From: Actinomycetota bacterium
GTDB taxonomy: Bacteria > Actinomycetota > Acidimicrobiia > Acidimicrobiales > Ilumatobacteraceae
Direction: 5' to 3'
DNA: 50,844 bases
Assembly (NCBI GenBank): GCA_009701715.1
Contig: WLJO01000015.1
Location: forward strand, 1-50,844
Each line of letters starts with the position of its first letter. Position 1 is the stretch's first letter. The notes under the pieces were generated by a model, which worked only from the letters and a program-made list of their open reading frames with translations, was not told the origin of the DNA and made no database searches. Both the position numbers and the translations under genes were made by a program. This document shows positions 1-5,790 of the stretch, one piece after another.

Positions 1-417
1 ACCCGTCAAGCCCGTATTGCCGGTGTCACCCTTCGCACCCGTCGACCCCGTGTCACCCTTCGCACCCGTTTGCCCGGCCCCACCCGACGCACCCGTCAAG
101 CCCGTATTGCCCGTGTCACCCTTCGCACCCGTCGACCCGGTATCACCCTTCGGTCCGGTCAGGCCTGTGTCACCCTTGGGGCCAGTCGGACCTTGCAGTC
201 CTGTTGCACCAGTTAGGCCGGTGTCACCCTTCGCACCCGTTGACCCCGTGTCACCCTTCGCACCCGTTTGCCCGACCCCACCCGACGCACCCGTCAAGCC
301 CGTATTGCCGGTATCACCCTTCGCACCCGTCGCACCCGTCGACCCCGTGTCACCCTTCGCACCCGTCGACCCGGTATCACCCTTGGCCCCCGTGGCCCCC
401 TGAAGACCCTGCGCACC
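1..417 (-). repeat. Imperfect tandem repeats encoding Gly-X-Y triplets
   Basis: The DNA is built from 9-bp-multiple units encoding [17 protein letters not shown] and [11 protein letters not shown]-type blocks. The same block starts at 1, at 91 (90 bp later) and at 289 (198 bp later) with only scattered third-base changes, which indicates recent duplication and slippage. Reading the opposite strand gives spurious Pro-rich frames. Confidence 0.85.
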
Positions 418-1014
418 GGTGAGGTTCAGGTTCCAGTCAGATGCCGATCCCGACCCACCGGTGAGTTCCACCAATACGGTCATCGCACCAGTGCCGACGT
501 CGTAGGACACGACGATGCCCTCGAGGAACCTGCTGCTGTCGGACTGGTCGCTGAGGCGCACCCGGGCGCCACCGCTGTATGCGAGGCGTGTCTGGGTTGA
601 AAATGTGCGCAGGCCGGTACCGACAGCGAGCAACCCGGACGCCGTGGCCGTGTATCCGGGGCCGGTATCACCCTTCGGGCCGGACACGCCCGTGTCGCCG
701 GCGGCACCGACCGGGCCGTTACCCCCGCCGTAGAAGTCCCAGTAGACGTTGACCTCATTCGTGGTGCAGGCTTTGGGAGCCGATCCGACAAACCTCGCCC
801 CAGGCCAGCTGAGGATGCGCACGGCACCCTTCTGACTCGAAGTGCCTTTCACGCGCACGCATGCGCGCACCGTGCCCGTCACCACCGTCTGTGCTTGAGC
901 CGGAGTTGACAACACGAGCGACGATGCGGCGGCGAGGACCGCTGCCACAACGGCCCCACTCGCCACTCGCCTTACGGTACGTATGCGCCTAAGCCCACCC
1001 AAGAACACCTTCAC
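1..1014 (-). CDS. Secreted collagen-like protein, 3' end beyond window
   Basis: Partial gene of 338 codons with no stop before the window edge. The GTG start at 1014 sits 6 nt below a good -10 box; an in-frame GTG at 1050 is an alternative. Residues 1-41 form a signal peptide (Arg-rich start, Ala/Val core, cleavage after AQA). Residues 50-95 form a small two-Cys domain (C52, C83) ending in VYWDF, of the kind that precedes many bacterial collagen-like stretches. Residues 100-120 are seven Gly-X-Y triplets. Residues 121-199 are a non-collagen module (GYTATASG... ending DWNLNLTG) that I recognise from phage tail and collagen-like proteins. From G200 to the edge there are 46 unbroken Gly-X-Y triplets. 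Thr occupies Y in 29 of them, Pro is almost absent, and there are ten Lys-Gly-Asp junctions. Likely a surface or appendage protein; the anchor, if any, lies outside the window. Confidence 0.85.
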
Positions 1015-1020
1015 GGTATG

Positions 1021-1049
1021 ACTGTAGACATGAGGAGAACGAATGTCCA
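1021..1049 (-). promoter_or_regulatory. Promoter of the collagen-like gene (leaderless type)
   Basis: On the minus strand a -35 TGGACA (1049-1044) is separated by exactly 17 bp from a -10 TACAGT (1026-1021). The GTG start follows 6 nt later, so the transcript probably begins at or next to the start codon. No Shine-Dalgarno site is present. This is the best complete -35/-10 pair in the window. Confidence 0.6.
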
Positions 1050-4100: not shown

Positions 4101-5009
4101 TTCATCGACCAGCAGCGTGACTACGACCGTATCGACGGCCCCGAGGTCAGCGCCCTCCTGCAGATTGCCAACAACCGGGGGGACGGCCGCGTCTATGCCG
4201 GCACGCGCGGCAACTGGGGTCCGTCGTACAAAGTGGGCTTCGTGCCCGTCCTTCACTACACCAGCCACAACGACACCGACGGCGTCGGCTTCACCTTCCG
4301 TACGGTCCAGTCGCTGACCACGGACATCGAAGCGTCCTTCGACGAGAACAACCTGTCGCAGTACGAGATGCTGAACGTCAGGTACATAATCGCGCCTACC
4401 TCCCGCGTCCCCGCGGTGCCCCACACCGTGGTCCAGACGCTCGGGGGCAGCACGCTCTACGCGATCGAGACCACTGGCTACTTCCAGGTTGTGGATCGCG
4501 TCGGCTCGATCAGCGCGAATCGTGTTGACATCAACGACGCAACCGCCGCATTCCGCGGCTCGGACCAGGCGAGCCGCAGCGTGTACCCGGGCATCGCCTT
4601 CGATGGGGACAAACCCCTCCCCGACACCGTCACCGCCGCGACCGACTCGCCGCCGGGCACCGTGATCAACCAATCGAACCAACGGGCCGACGGGATTTTC
4701 GAGGCAACGGTCTCGGCACAACGACGGTCGGTTGTGGTGCTCAAGGCAACCTACGACCCGGGTTGGCGCGTCACCGTCGACGGCGAGAGCGCGAACACCG
4801 TGATGATGGCGCCGAGCATCGTCGGCGTCGAGGTCGAGCCCGGGCAGCACACGATCCGCTTCTCGTACCGCTCCTACCCGCACTACCCCTGGCTGTTCCT
4901 ACTGGGCGCCCTCGCGCTGCTCTCGCTCGGCCTGTGGCCACGCAGGGAGCAAGTACTTGTGTACGCACAACGGGCCGCCCGGCGGTTTCGCCCGCGGCCC
5001 GGTCGCTAG
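1173..5009 (+). CDS. Giant membrane protein with two GT-C glycosyltransferase-like modules
   Basis: 1278 aa. The first module (about residues 25-475) has roughly a dozen hydrophobic helices, an acidic first loop (GDLRYF, D53) followed by DYPPGYLY, and so resembles GT-C mannosyltransferases that use lipid-phosphate sugars. A Pro/Ala/Glu-rich cytoplasmic-looking linker covers about 485-545. The second module starts about residue 553. It has its own acidic first loop (LNDSTFHLQ, D583), more helices to about 960, then a long soluble domain (about 965-1230) with a WRVTVDG strand, one last membrane helix and a basic tail. The second module resembles the membrane family annotated as '6-pyruvoyl-tetrahydropterin synthase-related' and YfhO-like proteins. 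The next gene, 19 bp downstream, probably makes the lipid-linked donor. Acceptor and sugar are unknown. The ATG has no clear SD. Confidence 0.75.
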   Translation: MTAEPLSSPARQTTPALVRWWRRLDHPLGLTGIIVIAVVVRLLLAPHFGFYGDLRYFREWAGRLQERGLRHFYAPDYFADYPPGYLYVLAFLGKIQQSPGYQLLKLPILIGDLALAWCTALLAARLAPESVRRRLPIRPIVLVAVLFNPAVLGVGAVWGQVDSVPSSMVMGTLLLLLTGRRSVARDLSGMVLFAGALAIKPQAGFLAPVLAYILIRRYVVDTPAAQRLVGAARLVLITVVSGSIWAFSGVPFGLSPSGLVNFLRNSAKTYPVTSANAFNFWGLFGFFKRDSDNFWNGQFEVVKVFGVKANTFGTIIVGLGAIALLWAAHRAITRGCNQARTLIATAVATNLLAYTMLTRMHERYMFPVIACLGPLLMWRWFRAAYWTLSILFVLNLWYPFALYNGQWDASGRVGRVYGLTIQPWFRWFFGNIDAVDTGQKKLWSFLVVVVTVAFVAMYYRWLLRPQLPRVWATQMLAPGRFDSVPGRGRPVPPAPERAAARDATGNNEQTASEPDTELPPAPLARTAIAALHRVRTAIPLPGAEKPAPSGWLRHGPRSLVALACTFGLLALRGELRSARTLNDSTFHLQMIRWASGQLERGRLPLDGWFPDLTLGSSFFHHYQSLPYTVTAILGRILHMSVSNMYLWILYLLVSLWPISVYWGGRLMGWGRWAASAAALVSPLIVSIPSYGYEHGSYTFQGWGVYTQLWGMWLLPLTWGLMSRAIRLGRGYPLAALALALTIATHLMTGYLAVLCLPVLGLLTNKQFGARVRRTALLGAGGLLTAAWVLVPLLTDKKYSAQSTFYKGTLYNDSYGAKVILGWLFRGSLYDGRHLPVITILAAVGFVVCALHLGQERARIVLGLWTLSLLLYFGRVTWKSVIDVLPGSEDLQMHRFIIGVQMAGILLAGIGTVALARLVVQGATTVWDRYGSAGSPTPAAKNSIPSLVSAAAVVVLGAIALSPSWRNTWDYDRGGWAFIDQQRDYDRIDGPEVSALLQIANNRGDGRVYAGTRGNWGPSYKVGFVPVLHYTSHNDTDGVGFTFRTVQSLTTDIEASFDENNLSQYEMLNVRYIIAPTSRVPAVPHTVVQTLGGSTLYAIETTGYFQVVDRVGSISANRVDINDATAAFRGSDQASRSVYPGIAFDGDKPLPDTVTAATDSPPGTVINQSNQRADGIFEATVSAQRRSVVVLKATYDPGWRVTVDGESANTVMMAPSIVGVEVEPGQHTIRFSYRSYPHYPWLFLLGALALLSLGLWPRREQVLVYAQRAARRFRPRPGR

Positions 5010-5028
5010 CATCACGGACGAGGTGGAC

Positions 5029-5790
5029 ATGAATCCTGAACCGTCGAACAACCCCCGGTCCGACGCCCGTACGGCCTCGGTGGATGTCGTCATCCCCGTG
5101 TACAACGAACAGGTGGTGCTGGAGAGCAGCGTTAACACGCTGCGCGACTTCCTCATCGCCAACTGTCCGTACCGGTGGAGGATCCTCATAGCGAACAACG
5201 CGTCGAAGGACCGCACGCTCAAGATCGCTCAGCGCCTCGCCGAGACCTACCCCGGCGAGGTGGACGTGGTTCATCTCGACCAGAAGGGCCGGGGACGGGC
5301 ACTCAAGAAGGCGTGGTCCGCCTCTACTGCCGACGTGATGGCCTACATGGACGTCGACCTGTCAACCAATCTCGATCACTTCATGACGCTCGTCACCCCA
5401 ATCGTCGAGGGCAGATATCACCTCGCAACGGGTTCGCGCCTCATGCCCGGCGCACGGGTCAAACGCCAGCCGAAGCGGGAGATCATCTCGCGCTGCTACA
5501 ACCTCATCGTGAGGGCGATGTTCCCCTCACGGAAGTTCTTCGACGCGCAGTGTGGCTTCAAGGCAATCGACGCGGCGGTCCGCACCGAGTTGCTCCCTCA
5601 CATCGTCGACAATGCCTGGTTCTTCGACACCGAACTGCTCCTGCGGGCGGAACAGCGCGGGTGGCGCGTCTGGGAGATCCCGGTGGAGTGGGTGGAGGAT
5701 CTCGACACCAGGGTCAAGATCGTCGACACCGCAATCGAGGACCTCAAGGGTCTGGCGCGCGTGCGGGTTACCCGGCTAAAGGCGCGCTGA
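5029..5790 (+). CDS. Polyprenyl (dolichyl)-phosphate sugar synthase, GT2 family
   Basis: 253 aa. The ATG at 5029 has a GAGG motif a few bases upstream and is preferred over the longer frame that would overlap the preceding gene. The GT-A fold motifs are visible: VVIPVYNE near the start for nucleotide-sugar binding, a DVDLSTN metal-binding motif near residue 105, then GSRLMPGA and a QCGFKAI segment typical of dolichyl-phosphate glucosyl/mannosyltransferases. There is no C-terminal membrane domain. It is expected to transfer glucose or mannose from a nucleotide sugar to polyprenyl phosphate on the cytoplasmic face, supplying the upstream GT-C protein with which it forms an operon. The exact sugar cannot be read from the sequence. 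It ends 4 bp from the convergent acyl-CoA dehydrogenase gene. Confidence 0.82.
   Translation: MNPEPSNNPRSDARTASVDVVIPVYNEQVVLESSVNTLRDFLIANCPYRWRILIANNASKDRTLKIAQRLAETYPGEVDVVHLDQKGRGRALKKAWSASTADVMAYMDVDLSTNLDHFMTLVTPIVEGRYHLATGSRLMPGARVKRQPKREIISRCYNLIVRAMFPSRKFFDAQCGFKAIDAAVRTELLPHIVDNAWFFDTELLLRAEQRGWRVWEIPVEWVEDLDTRVKIVDTAIEDLKGLARVRVTRLKAR

Follow-up and report, generated by a model that had tools for sequence, protein, structure and literature searches.

Already known separately are lipid-linked glycosylation systems combining a family 2 glycosyltransferase (GT2) with a GT-C-type glycosyltransferase, YfhO enzymes, and glycosylated spore collagens. In Streptococcus mutans, the gene of the Thr-rich adhesin Cnm is followed by the pgf genes, whose products modify this adhesin; deletion of pgfS, pgfM1, pgfE or pgfM2 alters the mobility and the protease stability of Cnm, with PgfM2 being proposed to act last (PMC5856776). 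Glycosylated bacterial collagens are reported mainly from spores, and there a better hydration network of the triple helix is believed to result from the sugars (PMC8968730). Here we describe a collagen-like gene, situated back to back with the genes of a GT-C-like membrane protein and a GT2, in a 50,844-nt stretch of actinobacterial DNA, hereafter the window, which is the start of contig C7 (G000:C7:1-50844) of a 2.8-Mb genome in 96 contigs (Table 1). We propose, with a probability of roughly 0.55, that this locus makes a glycosylated collagen via a lipid-linked GT2/GT-C pathway.

The main evidence comes from the neighbourhoods of related GT-C genes. A class-level search of 395 genomes with the C-terminal module (module 2) of the membrane protein gave strong relatives (E<1e-30) in 18 genomes beyond that of the window, located in 19 regions, two of which (L099 and L100) contain only a fragment. 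A phylum sample of 396 genomes added seven loci, including the cut L165; together with L010, labelled gammaproteobacterial, this results in 27 loci outside the genus and in 29 if the window and L049 are included. As controls served 20 regions around remote matches (E of about 1e-13 to 1e-4; YfhO/PTPS-like, with family membership untested), five of which come from genomes that also have a strong relative. A collagen gene was found in 6 of the 19 class-level regions (L082, L083, L086, L090, L091, and L092) and in none of the 20 controls (P=0.008). Collagen density predicts 0.49 linked regions (P=1.2e-5), an expectation for which collagen loci were counted by hand among the matches listed and some counts are perhaps low; in the strictest count, with each Pfam match taken as its own locus, at most 1.8 are expected versus the 6 observed (P=0.01). 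With one linked locus from the phylum sample (L163) and with L010, linkage outside the genus amounts to 8 of 27 loci versus 0 of 20 control regions (Fisher P=0.007); neither this test nor the gene orders described below depend on the expected numbers. The distance from collagen to GT-C gene is at most 3.6 kb at all eight linked loci, the shortest gaps being 128 bp (L086), 145 bp (L083 and L163), and 1017 bp (L010), and the seven actinobacterial loci are spread over six families. Since 12 of the 26 regions fetched at class and phylum level are shortened by a contig end, and since the collagen open reading frame (ORF) itself runs off the contig at L082, L083, L091, and L092 (four of the seven linked actinobacterial loci), linkage is probably under-counted. 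An 18-triplet candidate at L099 was dropped as a collagen, being a zinc-ribbon protein with a Ser/Thr/Gly-rich tail as judged by eye.

Several observations weigh against collagen glycosylation by this GT-C family. No collagen neighbour is visible at 19 of the 27 loci, so that the outcome which a preliminary description of this DNA had named as refuting it, glycosyltransferase genes without a collagen-like neighbour, was in part encountered. Among 19 genomes that harbour the family, six gave no match to Pfam Collagen (PF01391, E≤0.001), and collagens are common where the family is lacking, with PF01391 matches in 24 of 40 hand-chosen genomes that have only weak module-2 matches; collagen presence (13 of 19 versus 24 of 40) shows no clear difference. 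At least seven collagen matches were seen in 9 of 19 genomes with the family versus 5 of 40 without it (P=0.005), a contrast confounded by kinship and by the choice of the 40. On the tree, the linked label is scattered and no better clustered than after shuffling (9 changes for 10 rows, shuffled mean 8.5); linkage was thus gained and lost, or it is under-detected. Furthermore, a GT2 gene lies no more than 5 kb away at 6 of the 29 family loci, compared with 8 of the 20 control loci. The expected neighbourhood of collagen, GT-C and GT2 genes in related genomes therefore stands for the GT-C gene, and the GT2 is no specific partner. In case of L161 (8987-11089), L164 (8947-11088), and L165 (9471-10637), the GT-C member is located within an apparent ribosomal-protein operon, a strange location for a glycosyltransferase gene: it follows nusG/L11/L1-like genes and, at L161 and L164, also precedes L10/L7-L12-like genes (by eye; NusG of L165 by Pfam).

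Further unfavourable points concern acceptor composition, structure, and collagen neighbourhoods in general. The Thr excess in the Y position of Gly-X-Y triplets of GT-C-linked collagens (n=14) over unlinked collagens of other genomes (n=35) is not significant (P=0.15), with Ser and Thr taken together being weakly higher in the linked set (P=0.03), and the collagen of L091 is Gln-rich and nearly devoid of Thr at Y. AlphaFold2 models have mean pLDDT values of 39.8 and 38.6 and show no usable fold. The gammaproteobacterial placement of L010 rests on the label given to a metagenome-assembled genome, and the GT-C family is absent from 22 of the 23 collagen-bearing genomes of the respective order. 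Finally, large membrane proteins were found among 3 of 117 neighbours of collagen genes and 3 of 117 distant genes, all three neighbours belonging to the genome of the window. The latter comparison is based on 43 collagen loci (8 from this genome and 35 from elsewhere), picked by hand among the matches listed and without regard to GT-C; two without a called collagen gene were dropped and 41 kept, and the gene caller was home-made. Neighbours were genes of 90-1499 aa at up to two positions from the collagen gene, and the 117 distant genes were sampled from 188 at least four positions off at the same loci. Glycos_transf_2 occurred in 5 of the 117 neighbours and is not among the 25 families listed, down to single members, for the distant genes. 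The idea that collagen genes generally adjoin glycosyltransferase genes was rejected, as it finds little support across the 41 loci; the signal belongs to one GT-C family.

The loci without collagen, and the GT2 genes near control loci which indicate that such pairs are common, would fit a GT2/GT-C pair that decorates an envelope polymer or glycolipid in the manner of CsbB-GtcA-YfhO, collagen genes being adjacent since surface genes cluster. Pairs of YfhO and GT2 are best known from teichoic-acid glycosylation (PMC8035078, PMC5836110). None of the 20 remote module-2 control regions has a collagen neighbour, however, and the L010 relative is situated at the sole collagen locus of its genome. 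Teichoic acids, moreover, are not expected in that organism. We consider decoration of such a polymer unlikely.

A closer look at individual linked loci bears on the question of whether the linkage has a functional basis. L163 carries three tandem collagens, with Thr at Y in 73 of 92, 50 of 57, and 26 of 36 triplets, which are co-directional with the GT-C gene; a GT2 and a DUF2304 gene are divergent from the latter, and a TPR lipoprotein gene is located at the opposite side of the locus. Homology between these collagens and the N-terminal domain of the window collagen was considered and dropped, as it appeared in a Smith-Waterman alignment only, with repeat sequence included, and tblastn gave none at E≤0.01. 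L091 and L092, which belong to two genera, share the order collagen, TPR lipoprotein, GT2, and GT-C, the GT2 having a C-terminal part that resembles methyltransferases. Two GT-C paralogues occur in tandem at L083, the second adjoining the collagen gene. L090 encodes three large membrane proteins, namely the GT-C, a PMT_2 protein, and a further one, besides a collagen whose C-terminal tail looks anchor-like by eye. At L010 (G566:C35:12662-29499), the GT-C gene and three collagen genes are accompanied by those of a TPR-containing sulfatase, an STT3/PglB-like oligosaccharyltransferase, and a flippase, and 9 of the 9 collagen matches of the genome surround the GT-C gene.

Alternatively, the linkage might be a by-product of shared horizontal transfer or of accessory-gene islands without any functional tie. 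The patchy occurrence of collagen genes across genomes is in agreement with this, as is the L010-type GT-C, whose only copy among 109 genomes of its order (E≤1e-10) is that of L010, collagens being present in 23 of the 109 (E≤1e-6). The gene order kept in two genera, the tandem collagens of L163 running in the same direction as the GT-C gene, the STT3/flippase context of L010, and the lack of collagens in the control regions argue against it, and we judge a purely coincidental linkage quite improbable.

With regard to the acceptors, the word "dedicated" in the preliminary description went too far, given 11 collagen ORFs at nine loci in the genome of the window and a non-collagen Thr-rich protein at L096. 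At the latter (4049-6673), which belongs to a genome without Pfam collagen matches, an 874-aa OmpA-domain protein with GTPTTTNYG-type repeats is located one gene from the GT-C and adjoins a TPR protein. A lipoprotein-like protein with a long (Thr-Gly)n tail adjoins the GT-C at L084 (11159-11902). Both proteins, as well as the genomes that harbour the family and lack Pfam collagens, speak for a general O-glycosylation enzyme acting on many Thr/Ser-rich secreted proteins, of which collagens would be just the commonest neighbours; similarly, Pgf acts on two distinct surface proteins in S. mutans (PMC5856776). In a composition scan, non-collagen Ser/Thr-rich neighbours occurred at 1 of 29 loci and were thus fewer than collagens. 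Such a general enzyme is a serious possibility, if somewhat short of even odds, and it overlaps with collagen glycosylation since the collagen would still be modified. Taken together, the analysis points to a probable lipid-linked, Pgf-like O-glycosylation of collagen-like and other Thr/Ser-rich surface proteins, with acceptor and sugar predicted.

A second recurrent partner of the GT-C family is a small TPR-repeat protein, whose gene lies no more than 5 kb away at 11 of the 29 loci, compared with 0 of 20 controls. This contrast leans towards the family loci, as the TPR model was seeded by eye from nine of the 11 positive ones, L082 and L162 being new. The scan had flagged 13 of the 29 loci, from which L084 (seed not TPR) and L010 (TPR part of the sulfatase) were removed. 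A lipoprotein signal was recognised by eye in 9 of the 11 proteins. No such protein was found in the genus of the window (0 of 3 genomes at 1e-8), in a search that had no positive control. The TPR protein could be an acceptor-recognition or acceptor-delivery factor; PMC8035078 offers the speculation that GT-C enzymes of smaller size might depend on a second protein of this kind.

The window collagen reaches 73.7 bits with Pfam Collagen (PF01391; cut-off 27.2) and is thus a member of this family. NCBIfam models of the known collagen adhesins Lcl, SclA, and SclB gave 70-73 bits and stayed below their cut-offs of 325-500, with the ORF being cut by the contig start. For the same reason, the 46 triplets of the main run represent the visible part only. 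By eye, an N-terminal Sec-type signal peptide and a likely GTG start near position 1015 were recognised. Sequences related to the globular insert occur in further collagens of this genome (C10, L043), in a GT-C-linked collagen of G201 (L086, E=3.7e-6), and in an unlinked collagen (L143, E=2.8e-4).

The Thr content had been the chief argument for glycosylation. A count of the triplets agrees with the 29 of 46 given in the preliminary description, and its use as a distinguishing sign was dropped: Thr occupies 48.3% of Y positions on average in Gram-positive collagens and 31.6% in all bacterial collagens (PMC8968730), and the probability of at least 29 Thr in 46 triplets is 0.03 against the former and 1e-5 against the latter mean. 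The ten other collagen ORFs of the genome have a mean of 52% Thr in Y (range 29-91%). The Thr composition is thus ordinary for a Gram-positive collagen, and the gene neighbourhood is the informative part.

Within the genome, a glycosyltransferase gene is found at most two genes from 4 of the nine collagen loci. Apart from the window (C7), these are C79 with YfhO, C10 with GT87 and a TMEM260-like O-mannosyltransferase, and C24 with a GT2 with TPR and HtrL_YibB. At C10 (L043; G000:C10:963-10090), GT87, the TMEM260-like protein, and a third membrane protein adjoin two collagen ORFs. Furthermore, a 1489-aa TIG/IPT-domain protein is encoded 2.6 kb from a collagen gene on C38 (L046:13740-18209); animal TMEM260 reportedly modifies IPT domains. 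Contigs C7, C10, C19, C24, and C79 of G000 end inside collagen-like ORFs, and assemblies of this kind therefore under-represent collagen genes along with the genes around them.

The GT-C-like protein has 12 hydrophobic segments in a crude scan, and its two-module description holds, as the ORF is uninterrupted and each module has stand-alone relatives. Its C-terminal part (about aa 1176-1234) passes the gathering score of YfhO (PF09586; 33.1 versus 28.5 bits), which 18 of 19 aligned module-2 members match as well; PgfM1 and PgfM2 models are matched weakly by 15 and 12 of the 19, respectively (all E≤0.01). The PgfM1 equivalog cut-off of 1400 bits is not reached by the window protein (17-18 bits). 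In an alignment of 19 module-2 members, the conserved positions comprise a first-loop LNDxxxH motif, whose D583 (D41 of the module) is present in at least 90% of them, as well as the motif W(F/Y)PxLxLGSPxFLHYQ. In module 1, D53 is invariant in 10 sequences and accompanied by HFYAPDYFxDYPPGY, both common with clostridial (Monoglobus) proteins of 22-24% identity. A conserved acidic residue in the first extracellular loop is expected of GT-C enzymes and taken as a mark of catalysis; as far as sequence tells, both modules have one.

No module 1 match was found in 200 other genomes of the family of the window (at most the three best candidates per genome), and no collagen ORF at nine fetched loci of Monoglobus-type module-1 relatives. 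Strong module-2 relatives elsewhere have open frames of 709-1075 aa where uncut, which is too short for two modules; the fusion of both is thus seen in the window only. Profile search gave no solved-structure relative of module 2, and no relative was found in plasmid and viral-contig searches.

For the GT2, the designation as a polyprenyl-phosphate sugar synthase remains probable from its sequence. It is a GT-A protein of PF00535, and its closest solved relative is a dolichol-phosphate mannose (DPM) synthase (5mlz, E=5e-12). The ATG at 5029, 19 bp past the GT-C stop, looks better as a start than the TTG at 4957. On the 3' side of the GT2, an acyl-CoA dehydrogenase (Pfam) is encoded on the opposite strand, and a short-chain dehydrogenase (SDR; by eye) comes next. 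A second genome of the genus (L009, the same locus as G042/L049) has the same order of GT-C, GT2, acyl-CoA dehydrogenase, and SDR, the two dehydrogenases being recognised there by eye, with identities of 65% for the GT-C and 78% for the GT2; this contig stops inside the GT-C, the collagen side lying beyond its end. A third genome of the genus (81% complete) gave no match. The back-to-back layout of collagen and GT-C genes, with a gap of about 158 bp, was described correctly. A single sigma-70-like match was found in the divergent intergenic region, on the minus strand (1049..1021), and none on the plus strand.

Table 1. Features of the collagen/GT-C/GT2 locus, in window coordinates.
Feature	Position	Strand	Remarks
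Collagen-like, putatively secreted protein	1..1059	-	open at contig start, 3' end absent; Pfam Collagen
Main run, 46 Gly-X-Y triplets	1..417	-	Y: Thr 29, Lys 10, Gln 3, Ser 2, Val 1, Ala 1
Globular insert separating two collagenous runs	418..654	-	
Short run, 8 Gly-X-Y triplets	655..726	-	
Divergent intergenic region	1016..1172	.	promoter-type match scan
GT-C-like membrane protein, two modules, 1278 aa	1173..5009	+	ORF uninterrupted
Module 1, about aa 1-480	1173..2612	+	conserved motifs with Monoglobus proteins
Module 2, aa 543-1278, YfhO/PgfM1-like	2799..5006	+	Pfam YfhO, conserved motifs
GT2, 253 aa, DPM synthase-like	5029..5790	+	PF00535, 5mlz

If the locus makes a glycosylated collagen, the following pathway can be envisaged, in which the reaction, the acceptor sites, the sugar, the flipping step with its flippase, and the order of steps are predicted. 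At the cytoplasmic face, the GT2 would charge polyprenyl phosphate with a hexose, presumably mannose-like in view of the nearest solved structure, and the lipid-linked sugar would be flipped by a protein encoded elsewhere. No flippase was recognised by eye in positions 1-12000 of the window, where four proteins were Pfam-scanned; the genome was not searched for it. Outside the cell, Thr/Ser residues of the exported collagen-like protein would receive the sugar from the GT-C modules. As the collagen linkage is that of the module-2 family, YfhO-like module 2 is likely to be the transferase that acts first, and module 1 probably adds a second sugar or acts as a second transferase. Since PgfM2 is proposed to act last in Pgf, the two fused modules may likewise act in sequence. 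In relatives, delivery of the acceptor may fall to the TPR protein, in most cases a lipoprotein.

It is tempting to extend this scheme to the entire YfhO-like GT-C family, which would then provide an extracytoplasmic, lipid-linked O-glycosylation pathway with collagens as main acceptors and TPR-assisted delivery in many lineages, with a distribution throughout Actinomycetota and a transfer into a gammaproteobacterium; the window would represent a derived two-module fusion with its own GT2. We put forward this wider proposal tentatively and regard it as rather doubtful. A search of titles and beginnings of abstracts, which left out most subscription journals, gave no paper that describes a GT-C enzyme encoded next to a bacterial collagen or modifying one. 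If our interpretation is true, secreted collagens would obtain their sugar coat by another route, via a membrane GT-C pathway, the GT-C gene would be a genomic marker predicting which bacterial collagens are glycosylated, and the pathway could be a source of enzymes for making glycosylated recombinant collagen. The recurrent GT-C/collagen adjacency suggests a little-studied bacterial way of building sugar-coated collagens.

Compared with known systems, the window shares with CsbB-GtcA-YfhO a GT2 that is a probable polyprenyl-phosphate sugar synthase and a GT-C of the YfhO family, whereas the acceptors known there are lipoteichoic and wall teichoic acids (LTA/WTA; PMC8035078) and the family of the window is linked to collagen. 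With Pgf (PgfS, PgfM1, PgfE, and PgfM2), it shares a GT2 and large membrane glycosyltransferase(s) beside the gene of a Thr-rich surface protein, and the Pgf-type arrangement of a surface-protein gene adjoining a GT2 and a YfhO-like GT-C is indeed found in the window, with export judged by eye. Differences from Pgf are the collagen-like nature of the putative acceptor, the presence of two GT-C modules in a single 1278-aa protein, the other phylum, and the predicted status of the system; no gene of a sugar epimerase was recognised in the part of the locus that is visible, the DNA past the collagen gene lying outside the contig. BclA of Bacillus and BclA3/SgtA of C. difficile resemble the window in being systems of glycosylated collagen-like proteins, glycosylation being predicted for the window and SgtA being a glycosyltransferase that was purified and used in fusion with MalE (PMC7157674). 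The window protein looks Sec-exported, and its presumed enzyme is a membrane GT-C. Spore glycosylation, in contrast, is intracellular. TMTC and TMEM260-type O-mannosyltransferases, finally, are GT-C enzymes, TMTC having TPR domains, and a TMEM260-like gene adjoins another collagen locus of the same genome; they differ from the system described here in that module-2 members match YfhO in Pfam instead and in that the TPR partner is a separate protein.

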